Assembly: GCF_000315915.1 (NCBI RefSeq)
Contig: NC_020185.1
Location: 310,001-374,000, forward strand
Length of the DNA: 64,000 nucleotides
Source of the DNA: Henningerozyma blattae CBS 6284
Lineage: Eukaryota > Ascomycota > Saccharomycetes > Saccharomycetales > Saccharomycetaceae
Direction: 5' to 3'
Shown: positions 10,382-25,425 of the stretch, piece after piece
Layout: every line of letters starts with the position of its first letter
Numbering within the stretch: the stretch's first letter is position 1
The notes under the pieces: model-generated
The model's input: the letters and a program-made list of their open reading frames with translations, nothing else
Databases searched by the model: none
What the model was told of the DNA's origin: nothing
Program-made: the position numbers and the translations under genes

Positions 10382-11452
10382 ATGTTTTCAAACTCAATTA
10401 GAAATAAAGAAAACTTTCATCCTAAGATTGCCATTCTAGGCTCTCCAAACGTAGGAAAAACCGCCCTCACGATACAATATGCTGAATCAAGATTTTTAGA
10501 ATCTTATTATCCATCTATTCAAAATGAGTTTACCAAAATTATACGATTTGATAATGAGGGAAATTGTTCAAATGATGGAGTATATGAACTTGAAAGTACT
10601 TCTACAGGAATAGGAAATACAGGATTAGGAAGAAATGATAACACGATTGGTACGATTCCAAACAATATATCTAATACTAGTGGAATAGGCCAATCTTCTA
10701 ATAGTAATAATATCCTAATGGAAAATTTATCAAATTCATATCATGAAGGACAATTAGTGCAAATTATTGATTTGGGGGGTATTACCAGTGACTCATTTAT
10801 AAATTTAAAGAATTTAGTGGATATTAATGGTATAATGCTAGTTTATAATGTAATAAACAGGTCAAGTTTTGAATCTATTAAACTAATTTGGAATAAACTA
10901 CTGGATCAATCTGGTATTATTGAATTATTATACAAACTTCAAAAATCATATAGTGAAAGTAAGGTAAAGTTTAAACCCATTATATTACCTGTAGTTATTG
11001 TTGGGAATAAGATAGATCTAAGAGATATTCCAAATGATAAGAACATAAGAGACACTAAAGTTACGTTTAAAGAAGGACAAGCAATTACTAAGCTATTATG
11101 CGAATCCCTAAACAAAAGAATTGCAAAAGAGATAGAAAAAGGAAATAAATCAAAAAGTACATCAAAAACCAAAAATACAATCAATTTACCCATTCAGTTA
11201 GATGTAGGCTTTATAGAAACTAGTGCAAAATTAAACATTAATGTTAACGAGTCCTTTAGTCTAATCTTAAAGAAAATTTATAAGAATTTTAATAAGAATG
11301 ATGCTGCAAGCAATTTAATCAATAACGACAAGATGTATAAATATGGTTTTAATTTTAATTTCAATGAATATAATTTCAACCTACCAAACAAAAATGATGA
11401 CGAGAATAACTTTGTCAATAACGAAAATGAAGAAAGCTGTAATATTATGTGA
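10382..11452 (+). CDS. RHB1: Rheb-like small GTPase Rhb1, divergent
   Basis: This is a Ras-superfamily GTPase whose yeast ortholog RHB1 (YCR027C) affects arginine and lysine uptake. Visible motifs are a P-loop GSPNVGKT (20-27), an effector region YYPSIQNEFT, NKID (209-212), TSAK (280-283) and a C-terminal farnesylation box CNIM (353-356). The protein is 356 residues against about 209 in S. cerevisiae. An Asn/Ser/Gly-rich insert of about 60 residues splits switch I from switch II, and a second basic insert lies before TSAK. The switch II motif reads DLGGITSD (130-137) where Rheb proteins have DTAGQDE, so the Gln and Asp/Glu are missing. It is still an intact frame with all nucleotide-binding motifs. 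Confidence 0.9.
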   Translation: MFSNSIRNKENFHPKIAILGSPNVGKTALTIQYAESRFLESYYPSIQNEFTKIIRFDNEGNCSNDGVYELESTSTGIGNTGLGRNDNTIGTIPNNISNTSGIGQSSNSNNILMENLSNSYHEGQLVQIIDLGGITSDSFINLKNLVDINGIMLVYNVINRSSFESIKLIWNKLLDQSGIIELLYKLQKSYSESKVKFKPIILPVVIVGNKIDLRDIPNDKNIRDTKVTFKEGQAITKLLCESLNKRIAKEIEKGNKSKSTSKTKNTINLPIQLDVGFIETSAKLNINVNESFSLILKKIYKNFNKNDAASNLINNDKMYKYGFNFNFNEYNFNLPNKNDDENNFVNNENEESCNIM

Positions 11453-11975
11453 ATTATTTAGAGTTTTGTATCATCTTATAAGGACTGCTCTTTTCTAAAT
11501 AATTAGATAGTTTTGTATTTTGTTATTCATTTAAATATTCATAAACCCTATATAGACGCATAAAAATACATCTATCTAAATCAACTCAGATAATACTCAT
11601 CTAAATAAAGTTCCCAGATTAACATTACCACTTACTTAATAAACTTTTTTTCGTCTACCTTGTTTGGAATATTTATTGGAATTAAAAATGAGGTATAATA
11701 ATATTATTAATACACTTAATACCAATGTTTTGGTGACACAAATGAATATTTCCCTTGAAATAACTCCGTCGGAGATCAAATTGTGGATTACTAGCCTCGA
11801 AGAAAACCCCGCTATCTTTTTCCAGATTAAAAGAAACTCCATTTTATAAAAAAGGATAGCTAATGAGATAAATTATCGAAGATTTTTATTTTTATTTTAG
11901 TTGAAGATTGCGATCAATATCTTAATAATAAAAGCTACATTTTCCTAAAGGTTATAAGACCAATATTGGGCTAAT
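11453..11975. other. RHB1-NPP intergenic region with a small candidate ORF
   Basis: This AT-rich spacer contains a 53-codon ATG frame at 11688-11849 (+). Its last 35 codons, MNISLEITPSEIKLWI onward, use C-ending codons unlike random AT-rich DNA. An overlapping antisense ATG frame of 68 codons (11636-11842) has one hydrophobic segment. I recognise neither, and at most one is real. Confidence 0.4.
11688..11849 (+). CDS. unrecognised small ORF
   Basis: The frame encodes 53 residues with an amphipathic, protein-like C-terminal part (EITPSEIKLWITSLEENP) and no membrane segment. It lies 127 bases before the start of the NPP-family gene on the same strand, so it could instead be part of that gene's leader. 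No family is assigned. The call rests only on composition. Confidence 0.2.
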   Translation: MRYNNIINTLNTNVLVTQMNISLEITPSEIKLWITSLEENPAIFFQIKRNSIL

Positions 11976-14540
11976 ATGGAATCAATAGATGATGATTTGA
12001 ATGATTATTTGGACAACCCAATGAATGTCCCACCAATATTTGATAATGATTTAGTGTCAAGTTACCAATCAAATAATAGAAATCGGAACATAATTAATAA
12101 CATAAAATATTGGTATTATAGAGGACGTAATAGTTTATTAAATCAGATCTCCACTTTCAATCGTACAGGCCCGATATTGAATGATGTACCATTATACGAG
12201 CTAGATGAAAATGGAAACGGTTTATTTAATGATGATCTGGCTGACGATGATATTGAATGGAATCGTCATTATAGAAGAGGTACATGGAATACTAAGAAAT
12301 TAAGTAAGAATATAAGTAAACTGATTGCTATTATATTGTTTGTTTGTATTAGTGCATTTCTTTTAAAAAATGCATTCAGCAAGGGGTCGAGGGAGAATAG
12401 AGTTTATAGCCAAAGGGTTCGCAATAAATTGAATAAATTTAATCCATTTCTTAAATATAATAATGGTACCTTGGACTTTAATCCAATAAACATTATTATC
12501 TCTATAAATGGATTACAAGGAGGTATGATTAATAAGTACAATTTCCCATATTTGAGTAAAGTCTTCCAATTGAACTTAGATGGGTTTAATGTTACAAGTA
12601 CTCCTTATATGGAAAGCAATTTTCCATTTGAAAGAATTCCAAATCTTTGGAGTATGATAACAGGTGAAATACCAATTAAACATGGTATGATTAGTGATGA
12701 ATTTTATGATGGTGAACTCAATAAAGAATTCTTAGGAAATGATAAAACACATAATTATAATGATATTGATATTTGGAGAAATGATAAATATAATGACACC
12801 CAAATACCGATCTGGGAATTATTACAAAGAGATTATAAGTTTGAATTCAAAGTAGGTATCGTTGATTGGCCCGGATCTAATCTTGACTATACTGAAGAAG
12901 TTAAATCAAAGTATATCCCCAAGCACAAAAATAAAAAGAAGAAAGATAAGACATTTACCAAAGAAATCTATGAGGCAAAAGTGAAGATGCCATATTATAT
13001 GGGGGATTCTGTCTCTAAGGAGAAATCTAAGCATGATAAGAAAACATTTTCTGATAGTTTACACAAGATATTCAGTTATATTGATATGAATAAGATTGAC
13101 ACACGTCCTCAAATGGTTTTAAGTTCAATCAATCCATTCCATGGAATACCATTTCAAAGTGAACTATATGATTCTAAATGTCAAGATATTGATGAATTTA
13201 TTAAATTATTAATTGAAGGTATTGAGACACGTCAATTAAGTCAGTTTACTAATATACTGCTTGTTAGTGATAGTAGTATCAAGAGTGTTCAATTTAAACA
13301 GATTGCAATTGAAGATGGAATTATTTCAAAAGATTTTAAAAAGAAGAAAATATCAAACATGTATTTAAATGAAGAGGGGAACATTTTAAAGATTTATCCA
13401 CAAAAGAGTAATCAATTGAATGAGATTTATCAAGAAATCAAGACAAATTTACTTTCTTTAAATGATTTTGAAGATCATGGTGATGATGATAATAAAGATG
13501 AAATGGCGGAAGAGAAATTCAATGTCGAAGAATCAATTGGTGCTAATTATAAGGTATACTTGAATAATAAGTTCCCCATCGAATGGAACTTTAATGTAAA
13601 GAAAGATAACCATCGTATTGCACCCATATATATTGTTAGTGAACCTGGCTATGGTATGATAATGAAATCCAAAAAAATATCTAAATCTAAATCCAAGAAT
13701 AAAAATAAAAATAAAAATAAAAATGAAATCAAGAAAAACAGTATTACTGATCGTGGGTTATTTATTGGTATTGGGCCATATTTCAACAATGAGTATGTTG
13801 AACCATTTAACAATATTCAAATGTATGATATTATGAAGGAAATCAATGGGATTTATGATAAGGATAAAGAACTGGAAATTTTCAAACATGTCTTGGTGCC
13901 AATTAATGGTAATCAATCCAATACGATTGAGAATGAGTCTGAAAATAAACAATCTGGATATTTGTTTGTGGATGATTATGATTTAATACGTCATGACTAC
14001 GGGGAAGGTAATATGTATAATCATATCTTTGCAGGAGAGACTGACGAATATTATAAATCTGTACCAGCTTTTGACGATTTGGAGTTAAGTACGGATAATT
14101 CTGAGCATGAAGAAGAGAATGATCAACACGAAGAACATGAAGAAAATGAAGAGACTGATGATTCAGAGAATGAAGATAACGTCATTGAAAGTGATGACGA
14201 CAGTTCAAAAGGTAAGGGCGGAAGCATAAGTGAAGAAGGCAAGATATATTTGGAGGACACGAAAGCATTATTGGAGAACGCAACCTCGGCAGCATCTGAG
14301 GCAATCTCTGGGTTAGGACAAGCTATAAGCGGGTTGGTACACGGTATCCTAGGCAGTCAAGAAGATGCAAATGGCAAAGATAGTAATAGCAACACAGGAG
14401 AAGGAAACTCTGGAACTTCCGAGTCGGGTAACGACAAGGAAAGAACCGATAATGATAATAAAGAGCCTGTAAATATGGACACTCTCAAAGATAAACTCAC
14501 AGATCTGATCGACAACGTCTTGGGCAATATCCATAACTAG
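11976..14540 (+). CDS. NPP-family protein lacking catalytic residues (pseudoenzyme)
   Basis: By position and fold this is the homolog of yeast NPP1/NPP2, type II membrane nucleotide pyrophosphatases/phosphodiesterases of the alkaline-phosphatase superfamily. The 854-residue product has a cytosolic N-terminus, one membrane segment (about 115-131), then a lumenal/extracellular domain. Conserved scaffold pieces remain: YMESNFP, MITGEIPIKHGMISDEFYD, VDWPGS (296-301) and FIGIGPYF. Active enzymes have DGF, FPT...PNHW, DxxGH, SDHGM and HGY. Here these read NGL (Asn178), FPF...PNLW (Phe218 at the Thr nucleophile, Leu224 at the His), INPFHG, SDSS (431-434), and no HGY. The last ~170 residues are very acidic and Ser/Gly-rich. 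The long intact frame argues for a retained non-catalytic function. PMP and RHB1 as neighbours match NPP1/NPP2 synteny. Confidence 0.85.
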   Translation: MESIDDDLNDYLDNPMNVPPIFDNDLVSSYQSNNRNRNIINNIKYWYYRGRNSLLNQISTFNRTGPILNDVPLYELDENGNGLFNDDLADDDIEWNRHYRRGTWNTKKLSKNISKLIAIILFVCISAFLLKNAFSKGSRENRVYSQRVRNKLNKFNPFLKYNNGTLDFNPINIIISINGLQGGMINKYNFPYLSKVFQLNLDGFNVTSTPYMESNFPFERIPNLWSMITGEIPIKHGMISDEFYDGELNKEFLGNDKTHNYNDIDIWRNDKYNDTQIPIWELLQRDYKFEFKVGIVDWPGSNLDYTEEVKSKYIPKHKNKKKKDKTFTKEIYEAKVKMPYYMGDSVSKEKSKHDKKTFSDSLHKIFSYIDMNKIDTRPQMVLSSINPFHGIPFQSELYDSKCQDIDEFIKLLIEGIETRQLSQFTNILLVSDSSIKSVQFKQIAIEDGIISKDFKKKKISNMYLNEEGNILKIYPQKSNQLNEIYQEIKTNLLSLNDFEDHGDDDNKDEMAEEKFNVEESIGANYKVYLNNKFPIEWNFNVKKDNHRIAPIYIVSEPGYGMIMKSKKISKSKSKNKNKNKNKNEIKKNSITDRGLFIGIGPYFNNEYVEPFNNIQMYDIMKEINGIYDKDKELEIFKHVLVPINGNQSNTIENESENKQSGYLFVDDYDLIRHDYGEGNMYNHIFAGETDEYYKSVPAFDDLELSTDNSEHEEENDQHEEHEENEETDDSENEDNVIESDDDSSKGKGGSISEEGKIYLEDTKALLENATSAASEAISGLGQAISGLVHGILGSQEDANGKDSNSNTGEGNSGTSESGNDKERTDNDNKEPVNMDTLKDKLTDLIDNVLGNIHN

Positions 14541-20315: not shown

Positions 20316-20965
20316 TATTTCGTGACGCCTCAACGGAAAGGACATCACGTGAATGCATACTCACGTGCAACGTCATGTTGTTTATCTCCGACATCGTGGG
20401 TTTCCGTGACATAACCCGATGACTATAACCCGCGGACACAATGATGGAACAAGAAGGGTATTTCATTGCCTATATTTCAACAGCTTATCTCCCGTCCATG
20501 GATATTGTATAATAAAGTTACTTTTTTGTAGGGTGTAATTTGATTGGATGCCTTTTGACGTTTTTTTCTTGGAGATTCTATATTTTGTAATCATGTATAT
20601 ATAGTATAACAAACGGTGAATAGATAAAATAGTGGAATTTTGAGAATAAAATAAGTATTTAAAACAAGTCTAATTCGAAGCTTTGCTATTACTGTCTTAT
20701 TTCTCATTTACTACATGACTCATAGATTTTCAAATTTCCAAGATATTCAAATCTGAAATTTCGTCGAGTCATACCTATCATCTGATCTACTTTTAGATTC
20801 GAAAACATATATAAAATAAAGGAAAAAAAAGTAAACCATACATAAGAAAATACAAGACCATCTTAGTTGAGATTATCTTGTCAAATGAAATTAAACCTAT
20901 TTTAATAAGTTTAAGTTTATTTCAGTTTTAACATTTCGGATAATAATTTTTTTTAAAGCTCCAGA
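20316..20965. other. SLM5-YCR023C-like intergenic region
   Basis: Two CACGTG motifs occur near 20346 and 20362, close to the SLM5 stop. The rest is AT-rich promoter DNA of the first transporter. I looked here for the RNase P RNA gene, which lies near TIM9 in S. cerevisiae, and did not see its conserved core. Confidence 0.6.
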
Positions 20966-22888
20966 ATGGCTGCTCCCAAGTTAACTTTTAAGCAGCAGAT
21001 GTCTGGGTTCCCCTGGGCTCAACTGCTAGTTGTCTCATTGGTCCGTTTTAGTGAACCTATTGCATTTACCTCTTTATTCCCATATGTTTATTTTATGGTG
21101 AAAGATTTCCACATTGCTCCAAATGACGCCCAAGTATCTAAATATTCAGGTTATTTGTCATCCACTTTCTCTTTATGTCAGGTGCTTGCTGCTTTCCATT
21201 GGGGTAGATTTGCCGATAGAGGTGGTAGAAAGATTACTTTAGTCTGTGGATTGATCGGTACTTCTATGGCGTTATTAACGTTAGGTTTTGCCAAGCATTT
21301 TTATCAAGCCTTGCTTGCTAGATCTATGATGGGTCTTTTAAACGGGAACGTTGGTGTTATTAGAACTATCATTGGTGAATTAGCTACAGAAAGAAGACAT
21401 CAAGCAATTGCATTTAGTACTATGCCATTACTATTTCAATTCGGTTCAGTTATCGGTCCCATGATTGGTGGGTTTTTAGTTTTCCGTCAACAAACTGGTG
21501 ATGTGATACCCAATTGGTATCCAAATTGGTTAAGGAAACTTATAACTATTTATCCTTATTGTTTACCAAATATTGTTATTTCATGCTTATTAATGTTTGG
21601 TATGTTCTGCTGTATTGTATTCTTAGAAGAAACTCACCCTAAATTCAAGGACCAAAGAGATAGAGGCATCGAATTGGGTGACTGGATTTTAAAAGTGTTT
21701 TTTGGTGTGAAACCCAAAATTAGACCATGGCAAAATAAATATCATGAATCAGGACTTGGCTCAAGTTCTACTTCTGCAAGCAACACTAGCTTAAACACCT
21801 CTTCCAATACAAGTGTTGGAACAAGTATCGGTACTTCCAATAATAATTCAACAGATGCTTTGAATCATGCTCCAGTAGCTGTAACAGAAAACACTCCTTT
21901 AATTAGAAGTAATAGCGATGATGAAATCAGTGAAACTGATAGTATTCAATCAGTAACTGGATTATTGACAAGAAGACAGTCTGCTAGTTTAATCAGAACA
22001 TACTCGATACATGAACCTACCGATATGGTAGAACCAGAGAATGTCAAGGCTCCTGATGGTTGTACTGAAGCAAGTATGTGGCATCATGTTTTCCATACTC
22101 CTGTATTTTACCCAATCTCAATCAATTTTATTCAAGGATTACACCTGATTGTTTATAACGAATTTCTACCTGTGTTTTTAGCTTATGATTTAGCCAAGGA
22201 TCCAAATGATCCAACTAGACTAGCTTCCAAATTCCCATGGAAGATCACAGGTGGGATTGGGTATACTCCAGAGCAAACAGGTACCCTTTTATCATCAACA
22301 GGTATATTTGGCTGTTTTGTTGTGCTTGCCATTTTCCCTTATGTGGATCGTAATTATGATTGTTTAACTATTTTCCGTACTTTAGTGAAATTCTATCCAA
22401 TCATGTATATTATGATTCCATACGTTATTTTCCTACAAGTCGATTTCATACCAAGATGGGTTACCATCCTTTACTTATATACAATTACTGGTATTAAAAC
22501 CTTATGTGGTGCATTAACATCCCCACAAATCATGCTATTGATTCATCATAATAGTCCCTTGAGCTGCCGTGCATCCATAAATGGTGCAACAATTAGTATC
22601 TCTGCATCAGCAAGGTTCATAGGCCCACTAGCTTGGGGGTTTATAATGGCTTGGTCACAACAAAATGATGTTGCATGGCTATCTTGGTGGACTCTAGGTT
22701 TCTTCGCAATGGTAGCATTGTACCAAAGTTACAAGATTGCTCCAATCGATGAAGAAGATAACACAACTGAACAGGAAAACAGTGCTATCGAAGATATGGA
22801 AGAAGATGGTCACGAAGAGGAGTTGCAATACGGCTCTTCGAATGACACTATACATAGATCTTCACAGCAAAAAGCCGGTTCATCGTAG
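20966..22888 (+). CDS. YCR023C-type MFS transporter, copy 1
   Basis: This is a major facilitator superfamily membrane protein related to S. cerevisiae YCR023C, a vacuolar-membrane protein of unknown substrate (611 aa). The 640-residue product has six N-terminal membrane segments, with the MFS motif GRFADRGGRK between segments 2 and 3. A long Ser/Thr/Asn-rich cytosolic loop (about 255-375) follows, then six more segments and an acidic tail (EEDNTTEQENS onward, about 60 residues). A paralog follows 819 bases downstream on the same strand. In the N-terminal region (checked by eye at the 5' end) the two are about 70% identical at DNA level, but one internal block is about 94% identical, suggesting gene conversion. 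Confidence 0.92.
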   Translation: MAAPKLTFKQQMSGFPWAQLLVVSLVRFSEPIAFTSLFPYVYFMVKDFHIAPNDAQVSKYSGYLSSTFSLCQVLAAFHWGRFADRGGRKITLVCGLIGTSMALLTLGFAKHFYQALLARSMMGLLNGNVGVIRTIIGELATERRHQAIAFSTMPLLFQFGSVIGPMIGGFLVFRQQTGDVIPNWYPNWLRKLITIYPYCLPNIVISCLLMFGMFCCIVFLEETHPKFKDQRDRGIELGDWILKVFFGVKPKIRPWQNKYHESGLGSSSTSASNTSLNTSSNTSVGTSIGTSNNNSTDALNHAPVAVTENTPLIRSNSDDEISETDSIQSVTGLLTRRQSASLIRTYSIHEPTDMVEPENVKAPDGCTEASMWHHVFHTPVFYPISINFIQGLHLIVYNEFLPVFLAYDLAKDPNDPTRLASKFPWKITGGIGYTPEQTGTLLSSTGIFGCFVVLAIFPYVDRNYDCLTIFRTLVKFYPIMYIMIPYVIFLQVDFIPRWVTILYLYTITGIKTLCGALTSPQIMLLIHHNSPLSCRASINGATISISASARFIGPLAWGFIMAWSQQNDVAWLSWWTLGFFAMVALYQSYKIAPIDEEDNTTEQENSAIEDMEEDGHEEELQYGSSNDTIHRSSQQKAGSS

Positions 22889-23706: not shown

Positions 23707-25425
23707 ATGCCATCAAGGACACCCTCCAATCTTACGTTTAAACAACAGATGGAAGGATTCCCATGGCCACAAATACTTGTTGTGTCCATTGTACGATTTA
23801 GCCAACCAATTGCATTTACCTCTTTATTTCCATATGTTTATTTTATGGTAAAAGATTTTAACATTGCACCCAATGAAGCTCAAGTATCCAGATATTCAGG
23901 TTATTTGTCTGCAACATTTTCTTTATGTAAATTCTTAGCCGCATACCATTGGGGAAGATTTTCTGATGAATATGGTAGAAAGTTAACCGTTATTCTTGGT
24001 ATGCTGGGAACCTGCATATCTCTATTAATTCTTGGATTTTCCAAACATTTTTATCAGGCAATGATTGCTAGATCAATGATGGGTCTTTTGAATGGTAATA
24101 TTGCTGTGATTAGAACAATTGTTGGTGAATTAACTACAGAAGGAAGACATCAAGCAATTGCATTTAGTACCATACCTTTATTATTCCAATTCGGAACTGT
24201 TATTGGGTCTATAATTGGTGGGTTTTTAGTTTTCCATAAGGATAATGATAATACTATTTCTATCCCTAATTGGTATCCTAATATATTAAAAGATTTGATT
24301 TCTAAATATTCATATTGTTTACCCAACATTGTGATATGTTTCTTATTAATGTTTGGCATATTGAATGCTATTTTTTTCTTGGAAAAAACTCATCCAACAT
24401 TAAAATATCGTTNNNAAGATTATGGTATTAAAGTAAGCGATTTATTTAAGAGATATATTTTATGTATAACTCCTAAAAGAAGAGAATGGGATCAGCTTTT
24501 AAGTATTGAAGAAGATTTCCAAGAAACTATTAATAATAGGAAGATTCAAGAATATGAGGATTTTGAAAATGATAGAAAATATCCACTCAGATTGAAACCT
24601 ACAAAAGAAATTTCTTCTATTTCAATGAAAAGCTTTACATCTACTGAAATGGAACAGTCACCAAGTACCCTAGGTGAAACACATAGCATCCCAGATGAAG
24701 AAACTTCAATGTTAATAATGACATCTGATGGGTGTTATGAGAATAGTATGTGGCATCATATTTTCCATACTCCTGTATTTTACCCAATCTCAATCAATTT
24801 TATTCAAGGATTATACCTGATTGTTTATAACGAGTTTTTACCTGTGTTTTTAGCTTATGATTTGGTCAAGGATTCACATGATCCAACTAGACTAGCTTCC
24901 AAATTCCCATGGAAGATCACAGGTGGGATTGGTAATACTCCAGAGCAAACAGGTACCATTTTATCATCAACAGGGATATTCGGTTGCTTTGTTGTCATAC
25001 TGATACTTCCTTATGTTTCAAGAAACTATGATTGTTTAAAAATATTCCAATTTTTAACTAAATTGTATCCAATCATGTATATCATGGTACCATACGTTAT
25101 TTTCTTACAAGTCGATTCCATACCGAGATGGGTTACTATCATATATCTTTATTTAATTACATGCATCAAGACACTTTGTGGATCATTGTCGGCACCACAA
25201 ATTATGCTATTAGTGCATCAAAATTCTCCTTCAAATATCCGTGCATCCATAAATGGTGCATTTATTAGTATAGCAGCATTAGCAAGATTTGTAGGACCAT
25301 TATGTTGGGGTACAATCATGGCATGGTCACAACAGAACGATTTGGCTTGGGTTAGTTGGTGGTCATTGGGCTGTTTTTCCATGGTTGCATTATATCAAAG
25401 TTATAAGATTACTCCAATTGATTAG
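23707..25425 (+). CDS. YCR023C-type MFS transporter, copy 2
   Basis: The second member of the tandem pair is 572 residues, with the same FKQQMEGFPWPQILVVSIVRF opening split by small changes, the MFS motif GRFSDEYGRK, and 12 predicted membrane segments. Three undetermined bases (24413-24415) affect two residues but keep the frame. The central loop differs fully from copy 1, and the acidic C-terminal tail of copy 1 is missing (it ends KITPID). Block 24745-24996 is almost identical to 22073-22324 of copy 1. Substrate unknown. The separate loop and tail suggest different regulation or sorting of the two copies. Confidence 0.9.
   Translation: MPSRTPSNLTFKQQMEGFPWPQILVVSIVRFSQPIAFTSLFPYVYFMVKDFNIAPNEAQVSRYSGYLSATFSLCKFLAAYHWGRFSDEYGRKLTVILGMLGTCISLLILGFSKHFYQAMIARSMMGLLNGNIAVIRTIVGELTTEGRHQAIAFSTIPLLFQFGTVIGSIIGGFLVFHKDNDNTISIPNWYPNILKDLISKYSYCLPNIVICFLLMFGILNAIFFLEKTHPTLKYRXXDYGIKVSDLFKRYILCITPKRREWDQLLSIEEDFQETINNRKIQEYEDFENDRKYPLRLKPTKEISSISMKSFTSTEMEQSPSTLGETHSIPDEETSMLIMTSDGCYENSMWHHIFHTPVFYPISINFIQGLYLIVYNEFLPVFLAYDLVKDSHDPTRLASKFPWKITGGIGNTPEQTGTILSSTGIFGCFVVILILPYVSRNYDCLKIFQFLTKLYPIMYIMVPYVIFLQVDSIPRWVTIIYLYLITCIKTLCGSLSAPQIMLLVHQNSPSNIRASINGAFISIAALARFVGPLCWGTIMAWSQQNDLAWVSWWSLGCFSMVALYQSYKITPID
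24413..24415. other. three undetermined bases in transporter copy 2
   Basis: NNN inside the second YCR023C-type gene. The reading frame is kept if exactly three bases are missing. Confidence 0.99.

Follow-up and report, generated by a model that had tools for sequence, protein, structure and literature searches.

Reading frame and protein layout

The window analysed here is a stretch of 64,000 nucleotides of the yeast Henningerozyma (Tetrapisispora) blattae CBS 6284 (contig NC_020185.1, positions 310,001 to 374,000 of the forward strand). Our subject is the open reading frame (ORF) at 11976-14540, the product of which belongs to the nucleotide pyrophosphatase/phosphodiesterase (NPP) family and lacks most of the family's active site. 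The sole stop codon lies at the end of the frame, and the product, P0001 below, has 854 residues; nine relatives are called P0002-P0010. A preliminary description of this DNA had proposed an intact frame of 854 codons and membership of the NPP family. Both proposals were borne out, the latter by a Pfam match (PF01663, residues 173-567) that scores 137.6 bits against a curated cut-off of 23. PF01663 was the only family found in the product by the Pfam scan. A search of NCBIfam gave no match for P0001, P0004 and P0010, and for P0003 one match far below the cut-off.

The product has one hydrophobic segment (window starts at residues 109-118), a long N-terminal part ahead of it, and an acidic tail and a terminal helix behind the domain (Table 1). 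In the predicted model, the domain adopts with fair confidence the alkaline-phosphatase-type fold known from ENPP structures. The full-length model (mean predicted local distance difference test score, pLDDT, of 49) is too weak for details, and a Foldseek search with it returned NPP/ENPP proteins first. Base composition is unequal between codon positions (GC1 0.395, GC2 0.263, GC3 0.283).

Table 1. Features of the NPP-family ORF and its neighbours, in coordinates of the window.
Feature	Position	Strand	Basis
Whole ORF, NPP-family pseudoenzyme, predicted type II membrane protein	11976..14540	+	854 codons, PF01663
Motif R63..G65..VPLYELDENGN, residues 63-81, presumed cytosolic	12162..12218	+	
One hydrophobic anchor; 19-residue window of highest hydropathy (2.39) at residues 116-134	12321..12377	+	
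Pseudo-phosphodiesterase domain, about residues 170-626	12483..13853	+	Pfam 173-567, predicted model
Asn178 at column of DGF metal Asp	12507..12509	+	alignments
Arg220 at column of catalytic Thr	12633..12635	+	alignments
Asp241 at column of active-site Asn of HGIVGN	12696..12698	+	alignments
DxxGH loop remnant SINPFHG, residues 384-390; Asp lost, His389 ambiguous	13125..13145	+	
Asp432 (metal Asp retained) and Ser433 (metal His lost)	13269..13274	+	alignments
Former HGY segment, residues 580-590; Asn583 at His column	13713..13745	+	alignments
Acidic low-complexity tail, about residues 640-830	13893..14465	+	
C-terminal helix, residues 834-853, modestly amphipathic	14475..14534	+	predicted model
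Upstream: Ras-type GTPase, FDF/YjeF_N protein (EDC3-like), armadillo protein (VAC8-like)			Pfam
Downstream: 237-residue ORF without Pfam match, then MMS21, class II tRNA synthetase			Pfam

The former active site

Bacterial NPPs served as the intact reference. At least 119 stretches with the pattern FPNHY..VTG were fetched, and 104 frames were retained by length. The pattern contains none of the eight catalytic and metal-binding residues of the family, which are, in order, D, T, N, D, H, D, H and H. All eight are present in 98 of the 104 bacterial proteins, and seven in the remaining six. The site of P0001 was read from three alignments, two made with MAFFT and one with hmmalign. At the eight columns P0001 has Asn178, Arg220, Asp241, a gap, a gap or His389, Asp432, Ser433 and Asn583. 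It retains one of the eight residues in the first MAFFT alignment, two in the second, which adds His389, and three with hmmalign, which places Asp375 on the column of the lost DxxGH Asp where both MAFFT alignments have a gap. The family's two-metal site with its Thr nucleophile is not present in P0001.

The preliminary description had stated that the whole active site was lost. This holds for six to seven of the eight residues (five by hmmalign), whereas Asp432 is retained. In agreement with it, the DGF Asp is replaced by Asn178, SDHGM has become SDSS at 431-434 with Ser433 in place of the His, and HGY is gone, its His column being occupied by Asn583 in all three alignments. Its reading of DxxGH as INPFHG stands for the Asp, which is missing from both MAFFT alignments, and is ambiguous for the His, since His389 falls on the metal-His column in two of the three alignments. 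The catalytic Thr is the second Thr of PTKTFPN, which we take to be Thr210 of autotaxin; the number fits an 863-residue chain. Arg220 aligns with this Thr, and not Phe218 as had been proposed, which occupies a non-catalytic column. Leu224 had been taken for a lost His; it does not indicate a loss, as autotaxin has Leu there too (FPNLY). The replacement of the HGIVGN Asn by Asp241 is a loss beyond those listed before. The DxxGH loop of P0001 shows a six-residue gap relative to P0010. With this deletion the Asp of DxxGH has disappeared, as has the His in one alignment, and the independent site-loss events may thus number six.

Could the site have been remodelled, with one metal or none, for another reaction? 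Asp432, Asp241, Arg220 and possibly His389 still stand at site columns, and P0010 has Ser for the Thr together with five of the eight residues. However, the nucleophile, the DGF Asp, the SDHGM His and the DxxGH Asp are all lost, and we know of no two-metal chemistry that is left after such losses. Moreover, only His389 among the nine His of residues 156-638 is on a metal-ligand column. A changed enzyme therefore seems improbable. A basic residue occupies the nucleophile column in two lineages (Arg220 in P0001 and Lys228 in P0003), with acidic residues at other site columns, and these basic residues might compensate for the charge of the missing metal.

Relatives in other yeasts and maintenance of the gene

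The nine relatives were obtained from a search with the domain region and a profile search. A whole-protein search matched only P0001 itself, probably through low-complexity words that filled the candidates. P0002-P0009 retain one or two of the eight site residues; the profile was made from dead sequences, and the dead share of 8/9 says nothing on the frequency of dead NPPs. Like P0001, these eight proteins carry PF01663 and one main anchor. P0007 is a protein of Maudiozyma exigua, and the source name of P0004 describes it as similar to YEL016C NPP2. P0010 retains five of the eight residues, with Ser at the Thr column and Ser and Asn at two Asp columns, and possibly represents a half-way state of site loss. 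The cluster of P0010 has 32 member sequences.

These relatives also bear on whether the frame was joined artificially by sequence correction. The annotation pipeline of T. blattae corrected frameshifts in 418 genes (PMC3507789). Yet, the changed residues lie within a one-frame alignment of P0001 to P0010 (residues 20-631), and losses of this kind also occur in the relatives, so that an artefact of assembly or annotation is very improbable.

At most of the lost sites the replacements differ between the dead relatives: the Thr has become Asn, His or Lys, and the metal His have become Tyr, Phe, Arg, Lys, Gly or Asn. For this reason, the active sites probably decayed along separate paths. Within the seven proteins P0002 and P0004-P0009, referred to as clade B, Tyr or Phe fills 17 of the 21 cells of the three metal-His columns. 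In a tree rooted with 12 bacteria, P0001 and clade B stand apart from P0010 (ultrafast bootstrap, UFBoot, 91), with P0003 outside (92). Two site losses would be the minimum on this tree if lost residues are never regained. In a tree of the yeast proteins only, P0003 joins clade B (UFBoot 97). As the two trees place P0003 differently, the number of losses may differ from this minimum.

An alternative explanation is that the dead pocket serves as a ligand sensor or carrier, which binds a nucleotide, phospholipid or other phosphorylated compound but does not cut it. In P0004-P0007, seven of the eight former-site columns are invariant, compared with 51.6% of the domain columns (hypergeometric p = 0.041, in a post hoc test of one of six groupings), as if the refilled pocket were constrained. 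When P0002 is added, only one of the eight columns remains invariant, and among all seven members of clade B none does. Furthermore, P0001 shares no former-site column with P0010, and the replacements vary between lineages. We consider a sensor or carrier unlikely, though less so than a changed enzyme.

Outside the site, much of the layout is shared. One hydrophobic segment is present in nine of the ten proteins (window starts at residues 85-147), P0009 having a second short stretch, and [VI]PLY[DE]L precedes the anchor in all but P0003. Over the 11 columns of residues 71-81, P0001 and P0010 share 82% identity. In eight of the ten proteins, acidic residues prevail among the last 220 (40-63 D+E vs 11-22 K+R; not in P0002 and P0010), and hence the acidic C-terminal extension is not new, contrary to the preliminary description. 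A terminal amphipathic helix occurs in eight of the ten as well (0-38 of 1000 shuffles as high), the other two being P0005 and P0010. Four pairs of dead relatives share 60-89% domain identity, and in three of these close pairs the helix is better conserved than the tail: 88% vs 21% in P0004/P0006, 100% vs 57% in P0006/P0007 and 92% vs 34% in P0008/P0009. In those lineages, parts of the dead proteins thus appear to be under constraint.

A young pseudogene whose frame is not yet broken would also show loss of the site, which is expected once selection is lifted. We compared this with a neutral simulation, in which the ORF received random point mutations at flank composition (200 runs per step). 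The simulation has neither indels nor selection for changes and treats the deletion in the loop as several single events, and therefore gives a rough bound. At 0.3 substitutions per site the frame contained 27.4 stops and the chance of seven of the eight residues being changed was 0.028; at 1.0 substitutions per site these values were 44.3 and 0.6. Of the 200 runs, nine still had an open frame at 0.02 substitutions per site and one at 0.05; at 0.1 and above, no frame was open. Since simulated frames gain dozens of stops before seven of the eight codons have changed, it is unlikely that the gene went without any constraint through the whole time that loss of the site by drift would take. The codon-position composition differs, and dead relatives persist in other yeasts. 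A young pseudogene appears slightly less probable still than a changed enzyme.

P0001 is a homologue of an enzyme family without the residues that the enzymes require, in other words a pseudoenzyme. It is probably a maintained one, as the preliminary description had suggested, because the predicted fold is kept, the site is lost, the frame is intact and the relatives are equally dead.

Possible function

We estimate a probability of roughly 0.7 that P0001 is a catalytically dead NPP/ENPP member kept by selection, which is membrane-bound and has a binding role. The layout shared with the relatives comprises an N-terminal motif, one anchor, the NPP domain and, mostly, an acidic tail and terminal helix. 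P0001 would be a type II protein in the membrane of the endoplasmic reticulum (ER) or the cell surface, its dead domain facing the lumen. There, the fold may bind a partner or ligand rather than cut it. The likeliest job would be assembly of the outer spore wall, the non-nutritional role known for baker's yeast Npp1/Npp2, which may have outlasted the abandonment of Npp- and Pho5-based phosphate scavenging. This role, possibly as a scaffold in the spore wall, is our best guess, tentative and less likely than not.

Several observations weigh against this interpretation. Saccharomyces cerevisiae NPP1/NPP2 were absent from the matches of the whole-protein, region and profile searches. P0001 retains 30 of 64 other conserved columns but one of eight at the site; this enrichment of losses is suggestive only (p = 0.066), and the 64 columns include those fixed by the pattern FPNHY..VTG. 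The charges flanking the anchor are +4 on either side and do not settle its orientation, and the amphipathicity of the terminal helix of P0001 was equalled in 38 of 1000 shuffles. This helix shares only 25-28% identity with its counterparts in P0003 and P0004, and in P0002/P0004 the helix is hardly better conserved than the tail (40% vs 32%). In the exceptional close pair P0004/P0005, the C-terminus is 25% identical (8 columns) vs 48% for the tail; P0005, from a contig of 2,239 bases, has a different end. Finally, no finding links the ORF itself to spores.

In S. cerevisiae, NPP2 is described as mediating, together with Npp1p and Pho5p, extracellular nucleotide phosphate hydrolysis, and fusion proteins were located in the ER (PMC6497811). 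Double deletion of npp1 and npp2 lowers dityrosine fluorescence, as did all six paralog sets tested in that study, by at least 45% (PMC3744438).

The two yeast genes (YCR026C/YEL016C) encode enzymes of the same PF01663 family as P0001, which differs from enzymes of their type by the loss of six to seven of the eight catalytic residues, judged against the bacterial NPPs. Compared to animal ENPP1-7 and Xanthomonas NPP, P0001 lacks the metal site and nucleophile, and adds a long N-terminal tail, the acidic tail and the terminal helix. ENPP1-3 carry extra domains; none of that type appeared in the general Pfam scan of P0001, which was not an aimed search. Pseudoenzymes are known from many families. 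In the open literature, covered by titles and the beginnings of abstracts and with subscription papers mostly outside, we found no ENPP or yeast NPP pseudoenzyme. The pseudoenzyme passage in PMC11314389 concerns other proteins, and passages of PMC6027888 mention neither Tetrapisispora nor NPP.

A dead yeast phosphodiesterase with a full-length frame and equally dead relatives suggests a second job that needs no catalysis. Possibly, though this is doubtful, the yeast NPPs have an old non-enzymatic job, which may concern the spore wall and which persisted after catalysis was lost on more than one occasion, with P0010 half way. The parts responsible for such a job would be the N-terminal motif and the lumenal fold together with its terminal helix, and on the rooted tree P0003 and the group of P0001 and clade B would have lost the site separately. 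If these proteins are kept without catalysis, some of the published effects of Npp proteins in yeast, for instance the spore-wall defect of the npp1 npp2 double mutant, may not stem from nucleotide hydrolysis.

Genome and neighbourhood

The preliminary description had called for a second, intact NPP gene to be looked for. The genome (14,041,469 bases in 10 contigs) yielded four PF01663 loci with no such gene among them, and in agreement with this a search with P0010, which has the most complete site among the relatives, matched only the ORF at 11976-14540. The other three loci resemble glycosylphosphatidylinositol (GPI) ethanolamine-phosphate transferases, presumably of MCD4, GPI7 and GPI13 type: one has PigN, one PIGO_PIGG, and one was assigned by resemblance from PF01663 only. 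They share PF01663 with P0001, but all three keep DxxGH, DHGM and the following His (read by eye). The multi-span membrane region of such transferases, represented by PigN or PIGO_PIGG in two of the three, is absent from P0001.

We take yeast Pho5 to belong to PF00328 and Pho89 to PF01384. In searches of the genome that lacked a yeast control, no PHO5-type phosphatase was found, as both PF00328 loci carry the PPIP5K N-terminal domain, and PF01384 (PHO89-type transporter) had no locus. The two PPIP5K (VIP1-type) genes lie at C9:745051-746586 and C3:500671-502191. PF00245 (PHO8 type) has one locus, and a DIT1-family gene is present. External phosphate scavenging thus looks reduced in this genome, judging from gene content. 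The scavenging partners seem to have been dropped and the dityrosine pathway kept, a correlation in one genome.

The VAC8-, EDC3-, Rheb- and MMS21-like genes and the class II tRNA synthetase around the ORF, assigned by Pfam family, match by gene order both the NPP1 and the NPP2 ohnolog track of S. cerevisiae, in line with the neighbours of NPP1/NPP2 noted in the preliminary description. T. blattae is described as a species that arose after the whole-genome duplication (PMC3507789). The Ras-type GTPase (10382-11452, plus strand, 356 residues; Rheb-like by position) has a G domain that is matched in pieces, with a Roc match at 15-52 and the best Ras stretch at 124-300, as if a long insertion splits it. 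No Pho4 site (CACGTK) occurs at 11453-11975 upstream of the NPP-family gene, where about 0.2 are expected by chance, and this absence is hence uninformative. Elsewhere in the window, two CACGTG sites 16 bases apart (20346-20367) lie upstream of a major facilitator superfamily (MFS) gene at 20966-22888, which is followed by a second MFS gene at 23707-25425.
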